64,000 nt of DNA, taken from Acidobacteriota bacterium (GTDB taxonomy: Bacteria > Acidobacteriota > Terriglobia > Terriglobales > Acidobacteriaceae). The stretch spans positions 21,069 to 85,068 of the forward strand of contig JABCZH010000016.1 of the NCBI GenBank assembly GCA_013289795.1, written 5' to 3'. Under the pieces are notes generated by a model. The model saw nothing but the letters and a program-made list of their open reading frames with translations, searched no databases and was not told the origin of the DNA. A program made the translations under genes and the position numbers. This document shows positions 51,253-58,967 of the stretch, in pieces (positions within the stretch are counted from its first letter, which is position 1; each line of letters opens with the position of its first letter).

Positions 51253-53040
51253 CTATTTCTTTTCTGCCGGCTTTTCATCCTTTTCGGCGTCTTCCATTGT
51301 ACCCGGCATCAGGTGCATGAGAGGCTTCGACCGCTGCTCATCCAGTTCGGGATGGGGCAACGGCTTCCGGGGCAGCATCTGGTCACGCATCGCGGTATTG
51401 TAGACAAAGATGGCTTCCACGGTGGCCGCCTGCGCCAGATCTCCACTCTGCAACCGCTCGAAAGTGTCCTGGTTCGAGTGGTGCGTGCGGGAGCTGTAAT
51501 CCAGGGGATCCTGAATGAACTGGAAGCCGGGAATGCCAACCGCGTCGAAAGACTCATGGTCGGTGCCGCCGGTGTGACGTAAAGTGATGGTGGCAACGCC
51601 GAGGTCCTTCAGAGGTTCTATCCATTGCGCAAAGATAGGACTAACAGCGGCGTTTTCCTCCAGGTAGATTCCGCGGATCTTGCCGCTGCCGTTGTCCACA
51701 TTGAAGTAGCCGGAAATCTTCGGTTGATCAGGTTTCAGCTCAACTGGACCAGCAGGCTTCCGCAACCATTCCGGCTTCTTCATTTCGTCAGGTGCGGTGG
51801 AAAGCGGGACGAACCCGAAGTGCTGCTTTACATAGAGTTGGGAACCGAATAAACCCTGTTCTTCCCCAGTCCACAGCCCCACGCGGATGGTGCGCCGCGG
51901 CTTCACATGCAATGCATTCAGGATGCGCATGACCTCCATGGCAACCACTGTTCCGGCCCCATTGTCGGTCGCGCCGGTGCCAGCGGCCCAGGAGTCCAGG
52001 TGGCCGCCAACCATTACCACTTCATCTTTCAGCTTGGGATCGGTGCCAGAAATCTCGGCAATGGTGTCGAAGCCGTGTTCGTGATCGCCGGAGAACTTGG
52101 TGTCCACGTTCATCTCGATGTCCACCGGAACGTGCGCCTTCAGCAAACGATATACGCGACCGTAGCTCTCGATGGCCATCACCACCACTGGAAACGGAAT
52201 GGCATGGTCGCGCTGGTAAGTGAACCCGCCCAGACTGCCATCATCGAAAATCGTGCCACCGGAACCGCCGCCGTCTCGACCATCACGGCTGGGAAGAATC
52301 ATCGCCAGGGCGTGTTCGGAAACCAGGAACGCCTTGGTCTTCTCGCGCAACTCCATTCTTTCCGCGTATGTTTTCATGTACTCTGCATAATCCCGTTCGG
52401 GAGCCATCGGGTAATCGACCAGTTTGGCCAGGTCTTTGTCGTCATAGCGCTCAAACAGCGCTTTCTCGACCGGTTTGACCTCGCGCATTTCTCCGTAAAG
52501 AACAATCTTCCCGGTTATTTTGCCCTTATATTTGTCGAGGTCTTCTACTTTCTTCACTTCCATCGAGACCGCAGGGGCATTGATCGCGCCGTTGCTCGAC
52601 GGCGACCACGGCGCCGCCTGGGCGATGAACACGGCGGTGTCAGGTGAGCTCATGCGCACCCAAGTATTGAGTTGCTGCCATCCCATGCCGAACTCACCCC
52701 AATCCTCCAAGTGGGCATTGGCGCAGCCCATCGCCGTGAACTGATCGCGCGTCCACGCGTTGGCTCGCTTCAGGTTGGGCGATCCGGTGAGGCGCGGGCC
52801 AATCCCGTCCATGAGCGCCGACGCATACTCCATGACGTGCGAATGCTTGAGCCCCTCCTCGCGAATCTCCTGATACATGGAGTAATCAAGATCTTCTTTC
52901 GCCGGTTGCGGCAGTTCGTAGGAGGGCCGGCTCGCGACAGCGGAGCTGGCGTTGTTCTTTTTCTTGTCGGCTGCAATCAGTGGCAGGGCACAGACAATCA
53001 GTGCGGCGATGATAACGCTAACAACTTTCTTGCTGAACAT
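51253..53040 (-). CDS. Exported M28-family metallopeptidase
   Basis: 595 residues with a signal peptide (VVSVIIAALIVCALPLIAA). The C-terminal half is an M28 zinc peptidase: GGHLDSWAAGTGATDNGAGTVVAMEVMRIL (zinc His and bridging Asp), GEEQGLFGS (catalytic Glu) and the last zinc ligands around HTGGTDHESF. A PA-like inserted domain with the segment HAIPFPVVVMAIESYGRV lies near 270-310. It trims N-terminal residues from peptides outside the cytoplasm. The C-terminus is very charged (EKDEKPAEKK). It ends 12 bp from the convergent ABC exporter gene. Confidence 0.92.
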   Translation of the reverse strand: MFSKKVVSVIIAALIVCALPLIAADKKKNNASSAVASRPSYELPQPAKEDLDYSMYQEIREEGLKHSHVMEYASALMDGIGPRLTGSPNLKRANAWTRDQFTAMGCANAHLEDWGEFGMGWQQLNTWVRMSSPDTAVFIAQAAPWSPSSNGAINAPAVSMEVKKVEDLDKYKGKITGKIVLYGEMREVKPVEKALFERYDDKDLAKLVDYPMAPERDYAEYMKTYAERMELREKTKAFLVSEHALAMILPSRDGRDGGGSGGTIFDDGSLGGFTYQRDHAIPFPVVVMAIESYGRVYRLLKAHVPVDIEMNVDTKFSGDHEHGFDTIAEISGTDPKLKDEVVMVGGHLDSWAAGTGATDNGAGTVVAMEVMRILNALHVKPRRTIRVGLWTGEEQGLFGSQLYVKQHFGFVPLSTAPDEMKKPEWLRKPAGPVELKPDQPKISGYFNVDNGSGKIRGIYLEENAAVSPIFAQWIEPLKDLGVATITLRHTGGTDHESFDAVGIPGFQFIQDPLDYSSRTHHSNQDTFERLQSGDLAQAATVEAIFVYNTAMRDQMLPRKPLPHPELDEQRSKPLMHLMPGTMEDAEKDEKPAEKK

Positions 53041-53137: not shown

Positions 53138-53851
53138 TCATGCATCCGCAGGTTCCGCCGGAAGCGGAGCGATGGTGTGGAGTCCGCACTCCGTTTTTGC
53201 GAACCCTGACCAGCGTCCCGCCCGCGCATCTTCACCCGGTCTGATCGCCCGGGTGCAATGGGTGCAACCGATGCTGGGGTAGTTCCGATCATGCAGAGGA
53301 TTGTAGGGAACACCGCTTTCGCGAATGTACTTCCAGACGTCCTGCGAACTCCAATCCACGATCGGGTTGATCTTCACTAAACCAAATTTTGCGTCCCACT
53401 CGATCTTCCCCGCGGTCGCACGGAAAGCAGTCTGGTCGCGGCGAATGCTGGTGATCCAGGCCCGCAATTCTGACAGCTTTCTGCGCAGCGGTTCGATTTT
53501 GCGCAGATTGCAGCACTCGTCGGGGCTGCGGGTCCACAGGCTGGCGCCGTGGACCCGCGCCTGCTCTTCTGGCGAGAGCAGCGAGTACACCTTCTCGATT
53601 TTGATGCCGTAGCGTTCTTCGATCTGATCCATCAAGCTGTAGGTTTCCGGGAAAAGAAATTCGGTGTCGAGCGTAAACACAGAAAAATCACGGCGTACCC
53701 GCGACGCCAGGTCGATGACCACCATGCCTTCAGCGCCGAAAGCAGAGGAAATCGCCACATCGGGGCCAAAGTTATCGAAGGCCCAGCGCAGCACCTCTTC
53801 TGGGGTCCAATGTTCGGCGGCGAGTTGCAGTTTGAGGATGTCGTCTTTCAT
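53138..53851 (-). CDS. cysH: Adenylyl-sulfate (APS) reductase, assimilatory
   Basis: 237 residues of the CysH family. The [4Fe-4S] motif that marks APS rather than PAPS reductases is intact: Cys113-Cys114 (DECCNLRK) and Cys196/Cys199 (GCTHC). The mobile C-terminal ECGLH (221-225) carries the catalytic Cys222. The N-terminal AFGAEGMVVIDL is the P-loop-like region. It reduces APS to sulfite with thioredoxin. Last gene of the four-gene sulfate-assimilation operon; its start overlaps the cobA stop by four bases. Confidence 0.97.
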   Translation of the reverse strand: MKDDILKLQLAAEHWTPEEVLRWAFDNFGPDVAISSAFGAEGMVVIDLASRVRRDFSVFTLDTEFLFPETYSLMDQIEERYGIKIEKVYSLLSPEEQARVHGASLWTRSPDECCNLRKIEPLRRKLSELRAWITSIRRDQTAFRATAGKIEWDAKFGLVKINPIVDWSSQDVWKYIRESGVPYNPLHDRNYPSIGCTHCTRAIRPGEDARAGRWSGFAKTECGLHTIAPLPAEPADA

Positions 53852-54675
53852 CTTGCTACTCGTTCTTCCGCTGCCTCAGGCTTCATGAAAGCGCTCTGTG
53901 CCAGGAGCATCTGCATTTCAGCCAAAGGAACCACATTCGCGGAATGACTCCAGGCCGGAAGCACACCGGGCTTTGCGAAGCGAACAACATCTCCGACGAT
54001 CAGCAAAGAAGGAGCGGAGAACCTGGGCGTATGCGGGATCTCGGCCAGAGTGGTCAGATGAACCTGCTGATCTGCCGTAGTTGCCCGCGAAACAATAGCG
54101 CAGGGCATTTCATCTTCAAGGCCCGCTCGTTTGAGTTTCGACGCAATCGCTCCAGGATCGTGGGGCATGTAGATCACCAGCGTGGCTCCGCTGCTGACGA
54201 ACTTCTGCCAATCGGTTTCTTGAATGCCTGCCGCATGCTGCCCGGCAAGAAACACCACCGCGTGCGAGAGTTGGCGATGCGTCAGAGGAATCCCTGCCGC
54301 AGCCGCGGCCCCGAAAGCTGCCGTGACGCCCGGCACGATTTCGTAATCGATATTTGCTCTCCGTAGCGCTTCGATCTCTTCGCCTGCGCGCCCAAAGATC
54401 AACGGGTCGCCGCTTTTTAGACGCACCACGATCAGTCCCAAACCCGCGAGCGACGTCATCAGGAAATTGATGTCTTCCTGTGTGATCTTTTTCACTCCGC
54501 TGCGCTTGCCTACGTTGTGAACTTGGGCCGCCGGTGATACCAGCTTGAGAATCACCGGCCCCACCAGATCGTCATGAAGAACCGCATCTGCGGATCGCAA
54601 CAGCCGCAGAGCTTTCAGCGTCAGCAGATCGGGATCTCCCGGCCCCGCGCCCACCAGATAGACTTTGCCATTCAT
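53848..54675 (-). CDS. cobA: Uroporphyrinogen-III C-methyltransferase
   Basis: 275 residues of the SUMT family: YLVGAGPGDPDLLTLKALRLL at the N-terminus, VRLKSGDPLIFGRAGEEIEAL, IVPGVTAAFGAAAAAGIPLTHR and the SAM-binding GATLVIYMPH region. It makes precorrin-2, the first step to siroheme, the cofactor of the reductase in this operon. Overlaps of four bases on both sides indicate translational coupling. The C-terminal 30 residues (WSHSANVVPLAEMQM) are an extension beyond the core. Confidence 0.95.
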   Translation of the reverse strand: MNGKVYLVGAGPGDPDLLTLKALRLLRSADAVLHDDLVGPVILKLVSPAAQVHNVGKRSGVKKITQEDINFLMTSLAGLGLIVVRLKSGDPLIFGRAGEEIEALRRANIDYEIVPGVTAAFGAAAAAGIPLTHRQLSHAVVFLAGQHAAGIQETDWQKFVSSGATLVIYMPHDPGAIASKLKRAGLEDEMPCAIVSRATTADQQVHLTTLAEIPHTPRFSAPSLLIVGDVVRFAKPGVLPAWSHSANVVPLAEMQMLLAQSAFMKPEAAEERVAR

Positions 54676-55280
54676 GATGCTTTCTCCTTTGTGGCAAGTA
54701 GCAACTCCGCTTCGAAGGCTTCGCGGCTTGCGAGTGACAGCAGCAACCAGCGTTTGCGTTCTGGATCGAGGCTGCTAGCGAGGACTTCGCGCCGGGTCCC
54801 ACCCAGCCGCGCGACCCACTCCTCATAACCGGGGCCGAATTGCCGCTCCAGTTGCTGCCTTAGTTTCTGTGCAAGCGAGGGACTTTGGCCGGCAGTGGAC
54901 ACCGCGATCTGGAGATCGCCACGCTGCACCACTGCTGGATAGAAGAAGTCGCATTGTTCGGGGACATCCACGACGTTGCAAAGCACACCGCGCCGCTGAG
55001 CCTCGCGGAACACGCTTTCGTTGACCGCGCGTGATGCAGTTGCGACCACCACCAGAAACATTCCTTCGAGATCTGTGACCGAGAATGCCCGCTCTTCCAG
55101 CCTGATTTGGCCGGCCTCAGCCCATTCGCGTACGGCTGGGCTGACTCGCACAGCAACCACTCGCATGCGAGCACCGGTAGCGAGGAAACCGCGAATCTTC
55201 TGCTCGCCAATCTTTCCGGCACCCACGACCAGCACTGGGCGGTTGTCCAACTTCACAAACATTGGAAACAAGCGAGCCAT
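54672..55280 (-). CDS. Precorrin-2 dehydrogenase / sirohydrochlorin ferrochelatase
   Basis: 202 residues from ATG 55280 with AGGAG upstream; a longer frame is not needed. The N-terminal LFPMFVKLDNRPVLVVGAGKIGEQKIRGF is the Met8p/CysG-N NAD-binding domain, followed by LEGMFLVVVATASRAVNESVFREA, CDFFYPAVVQRGDLQIAVSTAGQSPSLAQKLR. It oxidises precorrin-2 to sirohydrochlorin and may also insert iron. Together with cobA it completes siroheme synthesis for the reductase upstream, seven bases away. Confidence 0.94.
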   Translation of the reverse strand: MARLFPMFVKLDNRPVLVVGAGKIGEQKIRGFLATGARMRVVAVRVSPAVREWAEAGQIRLEERAFSVTDLEGMFLVVVATASRAVNESVFREAQRRGVLCNVVDVPEQCDFFYPAVVQRGDLQIAVSTAGQSPSLAQKLRQQLERQFGPGYEEWVARLGGTRREVLASSLDPERKRWLLLSLASREAFEAELLLATKEKAS

Positions 55281-55287
55281 TTCTCTC

Positions 55288-56991
55288 CTAACCCTCCAGC
55301 CCGTGAGGCACCGGCCCCGGCGGCGCATCGCGCAATACCGCCGTCACCGATTCACCAGCGAGAAATCCGCGTAGCTCAGTCTCGCTATGGCGTGCGAAGA
55401 ACCGCCGCAGGTTTTCCCCCGGCAGCCGATCGGCCAAATACGCACGCAACAGACGCTCAATCGCGTCCGGCACTTCGTCGGCGGTGCAACGGTACCCGGT
55501 GAGCCTGGCAATCGCCTGATTCAATCCGACCGCGCCGCCCAGACAGAAGTAGTAGGCATCGACCATGCGGCCATCGACTTTCAGCTTCTTGCCTTCAATT
55601 CCGATGTCGGCGATCCAGTGCTGCCCGCAACTGTTGGGGCAGCCGGTAACGTGCAACTTCAAGTCCTGATCAAAGCCGGGCATCCGATCTTCGAGTTCCT
55701 GCACCAGCCAGCGAGAGAAACTCTTGGTTTCGGTGAGCGCCAGCTTGCAGAACTCGCTGCCGCTACATGCAATCGCGCCACGCCAGAAAGGTGACGCTCC
55801 GACGGGCAGCCCAACACCTTCCAGTTCCCGCGCCAGCGGCTCGCAATTTCCCTTCGGCACGTTCACGATCAGCAGGTTCTGCATGTTGGTGGTGCGAAGC
55901 TCGCCATTCGCAAAACGATCTGCCAAATCCGCGGCTGCGCGCATTTGCTCAGGATGGATCCGTCCCCGCAGCACCGCTGCTCCGACGTACCAATAATCAG
56001 GCTGCTTCTGCGGATGGATGCCGACGTGGTCGCGGTAAACGTCGGCTGGAGCAACCTCCTCCACTGCCGGATCGAGACGGAACCCGATGCGCTGTTCCAG
56101 CTCCCGCTGAAAGTGATCGACGGTCCAGCCGTGACGCAGGAAAAGAAACTTCAGCCGGGCCCGCTCGCGGTGTTCCCGCAGTACATCGGACTCGCGAAAG
56201 ATCTCGGCAATACCTTTGATCACGGGCAGCACCTGCTCCCAACCAGCAAAGGCGTTGAGCCGTGCAGCCAAATGCGGCTCAGCCGAGAGTCCCCCACCAA
56301 CTCGCAGGGAAAACCCAGTCTCCACTTTCCCGCGCAGTGTGCGAGTGACGGCGGTGACGCCAACATCGTTGATCTCCGGATAGGCGCACCAGACGCGGCA
56401 ACCTGTGATAGCGATCTTGAACTTGCGCGGCAGATTGTAGAAATCCGCGTTGCCGGCCAGCAGTCGAGTGACCTGCAACGCCAGAGGTGACGCGTCAACG
56501 ATTTCGTCCGCATCCACCCCGGCAAGCGGGCACCCGGTAACGTTTCGCGTCACATCGCCGCACGCTCCCATGGTGTTCAGGCCTGACTGCCACAGTGTTT
56601 CAAGCACTTCAGGAAGAGCTTCGATGGCGACCCAATGCAGCTGAATGTTTTGCCGCACGGTGATGTCGGCAACACCACGCGCGTGCTCCTGTGTCAGATC
56701 GGCAATGGTTCGCAGTTGGTGCGATTGCAACAGCCCGTTGGGCACGCGAATGCGTACCATGAAATAGGGCAGAGCTCTTCCCTCTCCACCTTGACCGGCG
56801 ACCACTCCAGCGCCGTCGCCCTGCGTGTACACACCCCACCAGCGGAAGTAGGTGCCAAGCCACTCCGGAGGAATCGAACCAAAACCTTCGCGGGCAAAGC
56901 GCCGGATCTCGTCGAGTCCCGTCCACGGGTTCTTCTCCCGCTTCAGGCGTTCTACGCGCTGTGTCTTCGTCTCTTTGATTGCATCTGCCAT
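55288..56991 (-). CDS. Ferredoxin-type siroheme sulfite (nitrite) reductase
   Basis: 567 residues from ATG 56991; a GTG further up lies inside the terminator and is rejected. Two ferredoxin-like half-domain repeats and the siroheme-[4Fe-4S] ligands CSGSEFC and CPNSC near 425-480. Sulfite and nitrite reductases of this type are hard to separate by sequence, but the operon (APS reductase, siroheme genes) and the cysteine-rich leader support assimilatory sulfite reduction to sulfide. First structural gene of the operon; its start is five bases after the attenuator T-run. Confidence 0.9.
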   Translation of the reverse strand: MADAIKETKTQRVERLKREKNPWTGLDEIRRFAREGFGSIPPEWLGTYFRWWGVYTQGDGAGVVAGQGGEGRALPYFMVRIRVPNGLLQSHQLRTIADLTQEHARGVADITVRQNIQLHWVAIEALPEVLETLWQSGLNTMGACGDVTRNVTGCPLAGVDADEIVDASPLALQVTRLLAGNADFYNLPRKFKIAITGCRVWCAYPEINDVGVTAVTRTLRGKVETGFSLRVGGGLSAEPHLAARLNAFAGWEQVLPVIKGIAEIFRESDVLREHRERARLKFLFLRHGWTVDHFQRELEQRIGFRLDPAVEEVAPADVYRDHVGIHPQKQPDYWYVGAAVLRGRIHPEQMRAAADLADRFANGELRTTNMQNLLIVNVPKGNCEPLARELEGVGLPVGASPFWRGAIACSGSEFCKLALTETKSFSRWLVQELEDRMPGFDQDLKLHVTGCPNSCGQHWIADIGIEGKKLKVDGRMVDAYYFCLGGAVGLNQAIARLTGYRCTADEVPDAIERLLRAYLADRLPGENLRRFFARHSETELRGFLAGESVTAVLRDAPPGPVPHGLEG

Positions 56992-56996
56992 AAATG

Positions 56997-57029
56997 AAAA
57001 AACCACCGCCAGCTTCTCTCTGGCGGTGG
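56997..57029 (-). terminator. Attenuator terminator before the sulfite reductase gene
   Basis: Perfect 10-bp stem CCACCGCCAG (57029-57020) with CTGGCGGTGG (57012-57003), loop AGAGAAG, and six T residues (57002-56997) on the minus strand. The start codon of the reductase follows five bases later, so this must be a leader terminator and not the end of another gene. Confidence 0.93.
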
Positions 57030-57059
57030 GTAATAACTCCTGAAACTAGGAAATAATGA

Positions 57060-57149
57060 CTAGATCAGCGGCCTCCCCGCACCAGAGCACACCTTCGCGC
57101 AACAACAACAAACGCAGGTGCTCTGGCGGTTTTGACCGTACAAAATCAT
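57060..57149 (-). CDS. Cysteine-rich leader peptide of the sulfate-assimilation operon
   Basis: 29 codons, ATG 57149-57147 to TAG 57062-57060. The peptide begins MILYGQNRQST and continues CVCCCCAKVC; six of 29 residues are Cys (12, 14-17, 21), five of them within six codons (TGC GTT TGT TGT TGT TGC). AAGG seven bases before the ATG is a suitable ribosome-binding site. The stop codon lies just after segment 2 of the leader hairpin, as in classical amino-acid attenuators. The peptide itself probably has no function beyond being translated. Too short for routine gene callers. Confidence 0.85.
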   Translation of the reverse strand: MILYGQNRQSTCVCCCCAKVCSGAGRPLI

Positions 57150-57272
57150 TGCTTGACCTTCGCTCGACCGGTAAAAGATCCGGCGATGTACAATTGGATG
57201 AAGAGTGAGGACCACGGGTGCAGGATAATTTTGGTTCTCTCAGCAGAAACAATTGTGTAGGGTTGTGTGTTG

Positions 57273-58967
57273 TCAGGAACCGAGCTTGAGAAAAGCTGCG
57301 CGCAGCCTGGAATGCATCTGCGTCAAACGCAGGTACCGCATTTCATTGGCCGCCGGCTTGGCACGGATCACCTGCAGCAGAGCCTGTTTCTCCTGTCGGC
57401 TCCACGACGCCAAGCCCGGCGCGAGTGATAGAACCATCGCGAAGGTCTCAAAGGTGGCTTTTCCCAGTGCTTCTTGGGCAGTAGCCTTCACAGCGAGAGC
57501 GCGTGCCAGCCATTTCGACGAAGCCTGGCGCATGCGTTGGCTGTTTCCGCCGAAGTCCCTGGCCATGTGGCGGTTCACCTTCAGTCCGATCTTGCGAGTG
57601 GAAAAGTTGTCCCAGGCGCCCACTTCGCTTCCCGGCAATTCGTAAAAGACGTGACCAGCCGCCAGGCGGCGCAGTGTTCTCGGGGAAGTTCTGTACTGGG
57701 GATCACTCGCGATTCTCCGCTCCTCGCGCTCCACCAGCTTCAGCAGATTTTTGCGGCCGGGGCGGAAGCCAAGCTTGCGGTAAAACCAGAAGGCGCCGGA
57801 CTCAATGGCTTCGTCGTTGCCATCCCCCAGTTGGTAGGGATACATCGAAATGCACTTCGCCCCGGTTAACGCGATCAGGCAGCGTAGTGCCTGCGCATAG
57901 ATCCATGCGACTTCGCCGCCGCGAAAGGTGTAGAAGGCGTTAAAGCCCACCTCCATCCACTCGAACAGCCCCGTAGCCTCGAAGTAGCTGATAGCGACTC
58001 CGTTTTTGAGCGTGAACCCGGCCACGTAGGCCCGCAAAGGCAAACGCCGCGCTGGATAGAGGTTCCACAGGTAAATGGAAACACCGCGCCCTACGTCGGC
58101 GCGCACCACCGACCGGGGATCTCCGAACGTCATGCCGTAGAGTTCCCGATAGCGCACCAACATGACCTCGCGAGCCCTCTCCACCACCGTCTTACCCTGT
58201 TTGGCTGACAAGCGGTGAAGTACCGGCGCTTGTGCGAGTTCTCGCGCCAGCGAGACTTCTCCCCGCGTAATCATCGGTTCCCGATGAAAAAATATTGGCC
58301 GCATCGGCTGCCAGTTCCGCGTGCGGGAGATGCGTTCGTTGCCCAGCTTCCAGCGCACCGGAAGACGAAGGGAATCGTAAAGCAATGCCTTCTCGACGTC
58401 GGACACCGGCAGCCGCGCGAATTGCCGGACCAGCCATTGCAGATTCCTATTCTTGTTTCCCGCCGCGGTTTGCAGCCACTGCTGCCAGGGGACGTTGGGC
58501 TCGATGTCGCCGTCTTCCTCCAGCAGGGGCATCAACCGCGGCCAGACAGCGGCCATCGCCCGCTCCTCGGCGTAATCGTCCCAAACGATCTCAACATCGA
58601 GGATGCGCTCTACCAACCATCGCATCACATCAAAACTGAGAGTGTCCTGCATGACGGTGCCAGCGATGCCCGAGACTTCGAGCGGATCAAAGTCGTCCAT
58701 ATCCGCTCCCGCCTTTTCGAGTTGCTCTACCCTTCGCGAAAAATCTCGCAGCAGACGTTCGCTCTGGCGGACAACCTCCGGGCCGTGGGGAAATGCCCGA
58801 AGGAATAAAAGGGCTTCATGGAAGCGAATCAGGGAGGCAGTGTCGGGGAATTTCCGCTTGCCCAGAGTCGACAACAATTCGACTACACGGGTGGATTCCC
58901 CGCGTCCAAAGTGGCTGCGGGACTCTTCGAGTTGTTGCAGCAGGCGATCCAGAGAGCTAGAGACCAT
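57273..58967 (-). CDS. Uncharacterised protein with GNAT-like segment
   Basis: 564 residues, no signal peptide or membrane helix. The N-terminal 200 residues are helical with many charged residues. A region around 300-420 contains GVAISYFEATGLFEWMEVGFNAFYTFRGGEVAWIYAQALR and ESGAFWFYRKLGFRPGRKN; the latter is reminiscent of the last helix-strand of GNAT acetyltransferases (FYRKLGF). I cannot prove that fold. The C-terminal third is basic. It lies 61 bp after a DUF5996 gene and the two probably form an operon. Confidence 0.65.
   Translation of the reverse strand: MVSSSLDRLLQQLEESRSHFGRGESTRVVELLSTLGKRKFPDTASLIRFHEALLFLRAFPHGPEVVRQSERLLRDFSRRVEQLEKAGADMDDFDPLEVSGIAGTVMQDTLSFDVMRWLVERILDVEIVWDDYAEERAMAAVWPRLMPLLEEDGDIEPNVPWQQWLQTAAGNKNRNLQWLVRQFARLPVSDVEKALLYDSLRLPVRWKLGNERISRTRNWQPMRPIFFHREPMITRGEVSLARELAQAPVLHRLSAKQGKTVVERAREVMLVRYRELYGMTFGDPRSVVRADVGRGVSIYLWNLYPARRLPLRAYVAGFTLKNGVAISYFEATGLFEWMEVGFNAFYTFRGGEVAWIYAQALRCLIALTGAKCISMYPYQLGDGNDEAIESGAFWFYRKLGFRPGRKNLLKLVEREERRIASDPQYRTSPRTLRRLAAGHVFYELPGSEVGAWDNFSTRKIGLKVNRHMARDFGGNSQRMRQASSKWLARALAVKATAQEALGKATFETFAMVLSLAPGLASWSRQEKQALLQVIRAKPAANEMRYLRLTQMHSRLRAAFLKLGS

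Follow-up and report, generated by a model that had tools for sequence, protein, structure and literature searches.

Genomic context and anatomy of the leader

The window, by which we mean the whole stretch of 64,000 nucleotides analyzed here, carries on its minus strand a group of genes that begins with a ferredoxin-type nitrite/sulfite reductase (NIR_SIR, 55288..56991, with NCBIfam matches below cut-off). It continues with a siroheme synthase of the N-terminal type (precorrin-2 dehydrogenase, 54672..55328), a uroporphyrinogen-III C-methyltransferase (53848..54675) and the phosphoadenylyl-sulfate reductase CysH (53138..53851), and the ends of these four genes overlap. The reductase falls under the NCBIfam cut-offs for nitrite reductase and sulfite reductase alike; because cysH shares the operon, we infer that it is probably a sulfite reductase. 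Approximately 100 bases 3' of cysH lies a gene for an M28 peptidase (51253-53040, minus strand), which may or may not belong to the operon, while a 564-aa ORF without a Pfam or NCBIfam match is found upstream of the leader (57273-58967, minus strand).

Between that ORF and the reductase gene, the first-pass annotation of the locus described a cysteine-rich leader ORF, a hairpin with the Cys codons in its loop, an alternative pairing of the hairpin's 3' arm and a perfect 10-bp terminator, and all four were found in the sequence of the minus strand. The leader ORF (MILYGQNRQSTCVCCCCAKVCSGAGRPLI) runs from ATG at 57149 to TAG at 57060 and has 29 codons, six of them for Cys. The regulatory codon run TGC GTT TGT TGT TGT TGC (Cys-Val-Cys4, 57099..57116) is preceded by segment 1 (CCAGAGCACC, 57117..57126) and followed by segment 2 (GGTGTGCTCTGG, 57082..57093), which pairs with segment 1, and the Cys codons form the loop of the hairpin CCAGAGCA(CC)...TGCTCTGG. 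The 3' part of segment 2, together with the next bases to 57075, pairs with segment 3 (CCCACCGCCAGAG, 57018..57030), which is common to the antiterminator and to the intrinsic terminator hairpin (57003..57029, CCACCGCCAG/CTGGCGGTGG, 10 pairs, loop of 7). The terminator is followed by a U-tract of six T (56997..57002), whose end is separated by five bases from the reductase ATG at 56991. The 10-mer ACCGCCAGAG is present twice, before the Cys run in segment 1 and as the 5' arm of the terminator in segment 3, and hence segment 2 is able to pair with either. An upper helix of the antiterminator is predicted between CTGA (57065..57068) and TCAG (57043-57040); it would span the stop codon, and in relatives it reaches up to six pairs. 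The leader folds with a z-score of -3.93, none of 200 shuffled sequences being equally stable, and the pause hairpin 1:2 is clear.

Two details of the first-pass annotation stand only in part. The "good" ribosome-binding site corresponds to GAAGG (57157..57161), a possible site judging from the sequence. The start itself is uncertain, given an in-frame GTG at 57215. The stop codon does follow segment 2, but this placing is not trp-like, as in the E. coli trp leader the stop codon lies between segments 1 and 2.

Conservation of the Cys codons upstream of reductase genes

Reductase loci were collected as the best 30 of 48 matching genomes (61 searched) and the best 80 of at least 589 matches on genome contigs; three of these 110 loci represent the same contig twice, which leaves 107 distinct ones. 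As a leader we counted an ORF that has 3 or more Cys within 7 codons and lies no more than 400 nt upstream. The first-pass annotation had staked its reading on homologous leaders keeping both the Cys codons and the terminator, and most of them do: among these best matches a Cys-clustered leader is present in 80 of the 107 distinct loci (83/110 with duplicates), and 65 of the 80 have a strong terminator. The 27 loci without a leader comprise 15 titled Rokubacteria or Methylomirabilota, five that are masked or truncated at the end of a contig (L029, L053, L069, L072, L094), six in which the reductase lies behind another gene (L093, L108, L110 and L111, with open frames reaching the start, and L023 and L087, by reading), and L026, which shows just two adjacent Cys codons.

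Under a stricter rule (4 or more Cys in 7 codons, no further than 300 nt upstream) 67 of 106 loci qualify (three duplicate contigs included), compared to 0 for the opposite strand, a mean of 0.6 for shuffled sequences and 1/932 for other stretches. Lowering the threshold to 3 Cys in 7 codons, at the same distance, gives 81/106, against 3 for the opposite strand, a shuffle mean of 8.4 and 25/911 other stretches. The leaders use 322 TGT and 169 TGC codons, with a median of 6 Cys codons per leader. A chance combination of hairpin and ORF is thus ruled out by the shuffles, the opposite strand and the relatives.

A structured leader before sulfur genes might also represent a riboswitch that binds a ligand or a tRNA (T-box, SAM or other), its ORF being there by chance, and T-boxes do read a specifier codon. 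Comparison of window positions 56700-57600 with Rfam yielded nothing at gathering score, only seven weaker matches, and the same comparison for 20 loci yielded nothing at gathering score except a tRNA, and no T-box match; besides, a T-box can do without a reading frame that repeats cognate codons between a start and a stop. We have rejected the riboswitch or T-box on the lack of an Rfam match at gathering score in the window and in these 20 loci, and consider it extremely improbable.

Conservation of the terminator and of the competing pairing

At the set score a terminator was detected in four of the 23 loci that lack a leader (L026, L069, which is masked, L097 and L107) and in 2 of 515 shuffled sequences; 15 of the 80 leader loci lack one at the score used. 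The U-tracts are conserved across loci. Alignment A1 includes 60 of the 65 loci with both leader and terminator (L019, L028, L030 and L109 could not be aligned and L092 has a misplaced leader), and alignment A2, from which seven more distant rows of A1 were left out, has 53 rows. The first-pass annotation expected compensatory changes in both hairpins of the relatives. For the terminator stem this is borne out: in A1, 91.9% of cells are paired, six pairs are changed on both sides, and there are 19 double-change cells, where shuffling gives 5.0 on average and sliding the stem along the alignment no more than 10. For the antiterminator the case is weaker: 85.7% (A2) and 82.6% (A1) of cells are paired, versus 31-47% for slid versions, and double-change cells number 17 (A2) and 22 (A1) versus shuffled means of 7.4 and 10.2, but these double changes show no excess over the slid versions.

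The upper helix of the antiterminator, TGCTGA/TCGGCA in the alignment, would close across the stop codon, and its fourth pair is U-G in 24, U-A in 18 and C-G in 6 of 60 rows. Swapping the partners of segments 2 and 3 between loci weakens the pairing for 47 of the 65 loci (Wilcoxon p = 7e-6, uncorrected for relatedness). Both the segment 1:2 hairpin and the segment 2:3 pairing are better than in shuffled sequences at p <= 0.05 in 40 of 65 loci each. The leader thus possesses a predicted antiterminator whose formation would exclude the terminator.

Leader starts and promoter-like sites

The alternative in-frame GTG start of the window leader (57213..57215, minus strand) lies 6 nt after a -10-like TATCCT (57222-57227), which is weak, as is the corresponding -35 element GTTTCT. 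The window leader may start either at ATG 57149 after GAAGG or at GTG 57215 after TATCCT, and the latter would make it leaderless, as is probable for its relatives. In 55 of 79 reductase loci we found a promoter-like site (at least 9 of 12 consensus bases) whose -10 box ends 5-12 nt before an in-frame leader start, compared to 13/79 at a control distance of 25-32 nt and 14/1580 in shuffled sequences; often these sites consist of TTGACA or TTGACG, 17 nt and TAGAAT. With a -10 box so close to the start, the leaders of these 55 loci are probably leaderless or near-leaderless. The window leader has no promoter-like site of this score 5-12 nt before its start.

A scaffold with different regulatory codons

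A profile built from the Cys leaders of reductases only (R1) gave 36 matches in 23 of 61 relatives and 14 matches in 14 of 396 genomes of the phylum. Thirty-six of these matches were read: Cys leaders precede genes for siroheme synthase, a second reductase, CysD, CysH, CysK, a rhodanese and an ABC transporter, and aspartokinase genes are preceded by Thr-rich leaders that lack a Cys run. Cys attenuators are also predicted in further families of the phylum, at L165, L166 and L167 (CysK-type) and at L168, L170 and L171 (CysH, in L171 identified by tblastn), and the leaders there include ACCCCCCCRPTRP; the element is therefore not confined to the window's family.

A second model (R2), which omits the codon region, was built from 50 of 86 prepared rows, seven of them from aspartokinase/homoserine dehydrogenase elements. 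It gave 27 matches in 19 of 40 relatives and, in 200 genomes of the window's family, 128 elements in 82 genomes (E <= 0.001), with no match in the remaining 118. The elements were typed by script, the gene classes being obtained by clustering and reading, with a Pfam check on nineteen examples. Reductases (48) and aspartokinase (31) dominate, followed by siroheme genes (10) and rhodanese (7). CysK-type, IlvB, homoserine dehydrogenase and tRNA-Cys have four each, CysD-type three, and IlvC, a solute-binding protein (probably for sulfate) and a FadL-like protein two each, whereas PIG-L, IlvD, carbonic anhydrase, peroxiredoxin, ThiS/CysO-like, SseA-like and one element without class occur once each. 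Among 54 loci, R2 found no match (E <= 0.01) in the 15 labelled Rokubacteria/Methylomirabilota with upstream DNA. A weak R2 match (E = 1.2e-4) at L093:644-737, 1.7 kb upstream of a reductase gene that itself follows another gene, is perhaps the attenuator of the longer operon. No second attenuator was found in the window's own genome by R1 (E <= 0.01) or by R2, where the next match has E = 0.56; three of the eight weaker R2 matches there were read and showed no convincing leader. A search of the same genome for runs of TGY was uninformative (66 matches vs 30 for the reversed pattern). One R1 match (L172) and three R2 matches (L197, L198, L305) were taken as false, as neither a leader nor a gene fitted.

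The Cys rule (3 or more in 7 codons) is passed by 83 of 85 sulfur or tRNA-Cys loci, but by none of the 42 aspartate or branched-chain ones (Fisher p = 1e-31). As 28 of the 128 elements (6 of them non-sulfur) were themselves rows of R2, the comparison was repeated without them, giving 61/63 versus 0/36. The two exceptions show a Cys run on reading: in L244 the leader is cut by the start of the contig, and in L296 the stop codon lies just before the match, outside the rule. The assignment of PIG-L, peroxiredoxin, FadL-like and carbonic anhydrase genes to the sulfur-related class followed their Cys leaders and is partly circular, which concerns 5 of the 85 loci. At least 5 Thr+Ile in 13 codons are found in 28 of 35 aspartokinase/homoserine dehydrogenase loci versus 1 of 85 sulfur loci; examples among the 31 aspartokinase loci of Thr/Ile-rich leaders without a Cys run are L158, L173, L176, L199, L200 and L201, and similar recoded leaders precede homoserine dehydrogenase and ilv genes. 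At random positions of the same loci the Cys rule was passed by 19/1280 and the Thr+Ile rule by 12/1280, 455 of these positions having an ORF by the rule. Met codons recur in some aspartate-type leaders and a few, such as L188, L270 and L295, hold two Cys codons, which makes the Thr/Ile code less clear-cut than that for Cys. Branched-chain enrichment is seen in 6 of 7 ilv loci, but with any frame counted also in 45 of 85 sulfur loci; the test therefore has no discriminating power, and the branched-chain code is based on inspection of the seven leaders, of which L269 showed no branched-chain richness. With this reservation, the predicted regulatory codons are cognate to the downstream pathway.

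The variation of codons also bears on whether the short ORF could encode a functional Cys-rich peptide, for instance a metal-binding one, with the terminator being an ordinary one. Poly-Cys peptides can bind metals, and a Cys-clustered ORF in 80 of 107 distinct loci among the best matches would fit such a role. The length and the residues before the Cys run, however, vary widely, the recurrent C-terminal SGAGRLLT is encoded by segment 2 and its flank, which are under RNA-pairing constraint, and the same scaffold occurs with Thr-rich or branched-chain-rich codons before other pathways. We give this explanation hardly any credence, and prefer to regard the ORF as a leader that is read for its codons. 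As to the origin of the versions, recent copying inside one genome is not supported, as the likeness of Cys and Thr elements is 0.653 within a genome and 0.652 across genomes (19 genomes); pairs of elements with the same code have a likeness of 0.71.

Elements preceding tRNA-Cys genes and unexpected targets

In four genomes a Cys element (L179, L250, L285, L294) is followed after 4-18 nt by a tRNA-Cys(GCA) gene identified by ARAGORN; in L179 the element lies at L179:466-542, with the tRNA-Cys just downstream of the R2 match. Since a tRNA is not translated, the element can act there on RNA only, most simply by termination. These four cases provide our best evidence against pure translation attenuation, according to which the hairpins would mask the ribosome-binding site of the first gene until a stalled ribosome exposes it, termination being minor. 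In favor of that view, cysteine genes of M. smegmatis are described under translation attenuation in PMC13236596, and 12 of 65 loci, among them that of the window, have a terminator stem that ends no more than 12 nt before the gene start, where its 3' arm may cover the ribosome-binding site. On the other hand, the U-tracts are conserved, the median distance from stem to start is 24 nt, and a tRNA gene has no start codon to hide. We find translation attenuation improbable as the main mode of action, and possible as a minor added role; the position of the elements before tRNA-Cys genes argues for control of transcription.

Cys leaders were also observed before genes that are not obviously related to sulfur, encoding a FadL-like porin (L164, L189), a PIG-L deacetylase (L271), a peroxiredoxin (L302) and a carbonic anhydrase (L283). 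The codons in front may point to thiol or sulfur roles of these proteins.

Predicted mechanism

Based on the conservation of the leader and terminator, the paired changes and the match between codons and pathways, we predict with considerable confidence that the leader at 57149-56997 is a cysteine-responsive, ribosome-mediated transcription attenuator of the sulfite reductase-siroheme-cysH operon, in agreement with the Cys-tRNA attenuator put forward by the first-pass annotation. With Cys-tRNA plentiful, the ribosome would reach the stop codon and cover the 3' flank of segment 2, the 2:3 antiterminator and its upper helix would come too late, the 3:4 terminator would form, and transcription would end five bases before the reductase ATG. 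With Cys-tRNA scarce, the ribosome would stall over segment 1 and the Cys codons and leave segment 2 free, the 2:3 antiterminator would fold before segment 4 is made, and RNA polymerase would read into the operon.

Counted from the first base of the last Cys codon in the cluster, segment 2 lies at a median distance of 19 nt (65 loci). With segment 4 unmade, the last seven bases of segment 3 are computed to be paired upstream with a median probability of 0.85 when the ribosome is on a Cys codon, 0.44 when it is at the stop codon and 0.67 when there is no ribosome (60 loci), and the window transcript before segment 4 has -27.7 kcal/mol with the ribosome stalled on Cys versus -1.8 at the stop. 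At full length the computed equilibrium favors the terminator wherever the ribosome is placed (median probability 0.96-0.97), and even with the ribosome stalled this probability exceeds 0.5 in 56 of 60 loci. This rules out a pure thermodynamic switch; the switch, if real, is kinetic.

In this family of acidobacterial elements, then, one scaffold would carry Cys codons where a sulfur gene or tRNA-Cys follows, Thr/Ile-rich codons where the next gene encodes aspartokinase or homoserine dehydrogenase, and Ile/Val/Leu-rich codons in front of ilv genes. We lean towards the view that a single re-codable scaffold was duplicated and respecified by exchange of leader codons, and that its Cys version, often leaderless, constitutes a sulfur regulon that includes a tRNA-Cys gene, so that the level of Cys-tRNA would set its own tRNA supply. 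If so, this cis-acting sulfur regulon can be read from DNA alone, and it probably includes a tRNA gene under leader-peptide attenuation. The natural series of codon swaps makes it possible to test cleanly how the choice of leader codons determines specificity while the RNA stays the same, and the codons in front may suggest functions for genes such as the FadL-like porin, the PIG-L deacetylase and the rhodanese. According to PMC2965389, hardly any of the attenuators predicted in Acidobacteria had a function associated with it; a likely function can now be assigned to an attenuator family that R2 detected in 82 of the 200 genomes searched from a single acidobacterial family.

Comparison with known attenuators

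The acidobacterial element resembles the trp, his, thr and ilv attenuators of Proteobacteria and Actinobacteria in having regulatory codons and a mutually exclusive antiterminator and terminator, as far as these can be predicted, and the Thr/Ile codons of the aspartokinase elements recall those of the E. coli thr leader. It differs in that the stop codon follows segment 2, that one scaffold serves the Cys, Thr/Ile and branched-chain versions, and that 55 of 79 reductase loci have a promoter-like site too near the start for a Shine-Dalgarno leader.

The Cys-rich leader ORFs of mycobacteria are reportedly leaderless, going by the title of a 2020 study by Canestrari. They resemble the acidobacterial leaders as short ORFs with a Cys run before cys genes, and the leaders of the window's relatives are probably near-leaderless as well. 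The first-pass annotation rightly pointed to such ORFs: PMC1262725 describes Cys-rich leader ORFs in the cys operons of Mycobacterium and P. acnes and before cbs of B. longum. It also states that the Mycobacterium leaders have no conserved terminator hairpin, whereas a terminator is present in the window and its relatives. Where the mycobacterial leaders are assigned to translation attenuation (PMC13236596, for M. smegmatis), the window element combines an intrinsic terminator with a predicted competing antiterminator.

Among the matches listed in the open-licence literature searched, there is no report of a leader-peptide or Cys attenuator from Acidobacteriota, in line with the first-pass annotation, which knew of none with this architecture. 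The closest counterpart is the uORFC-8-2 motif, a predicted Cys attenuator of cysS in Rhodobacterales (PMC8632094). By its description, the motif shares the short uORF, tandem Cys codons in the first stem, a terminator-like U-run and the proposed stalling for Cys-tRNA, but it has two Cys codons, a single target (cysS) and occurs in Alphaproteobacteria. The acidobacterial element has a median of 6 Cys codons, many sulfur targets as well as tRNA-Cys, and versions with other codons. Thus, the prediction of a Cys attenuator as such is already known from cysS of Rhodobacterales, whereas the re-coded scaffold, the wide set of sulfur genes, the association with tRNA-Cys and the phylum appear to be new.
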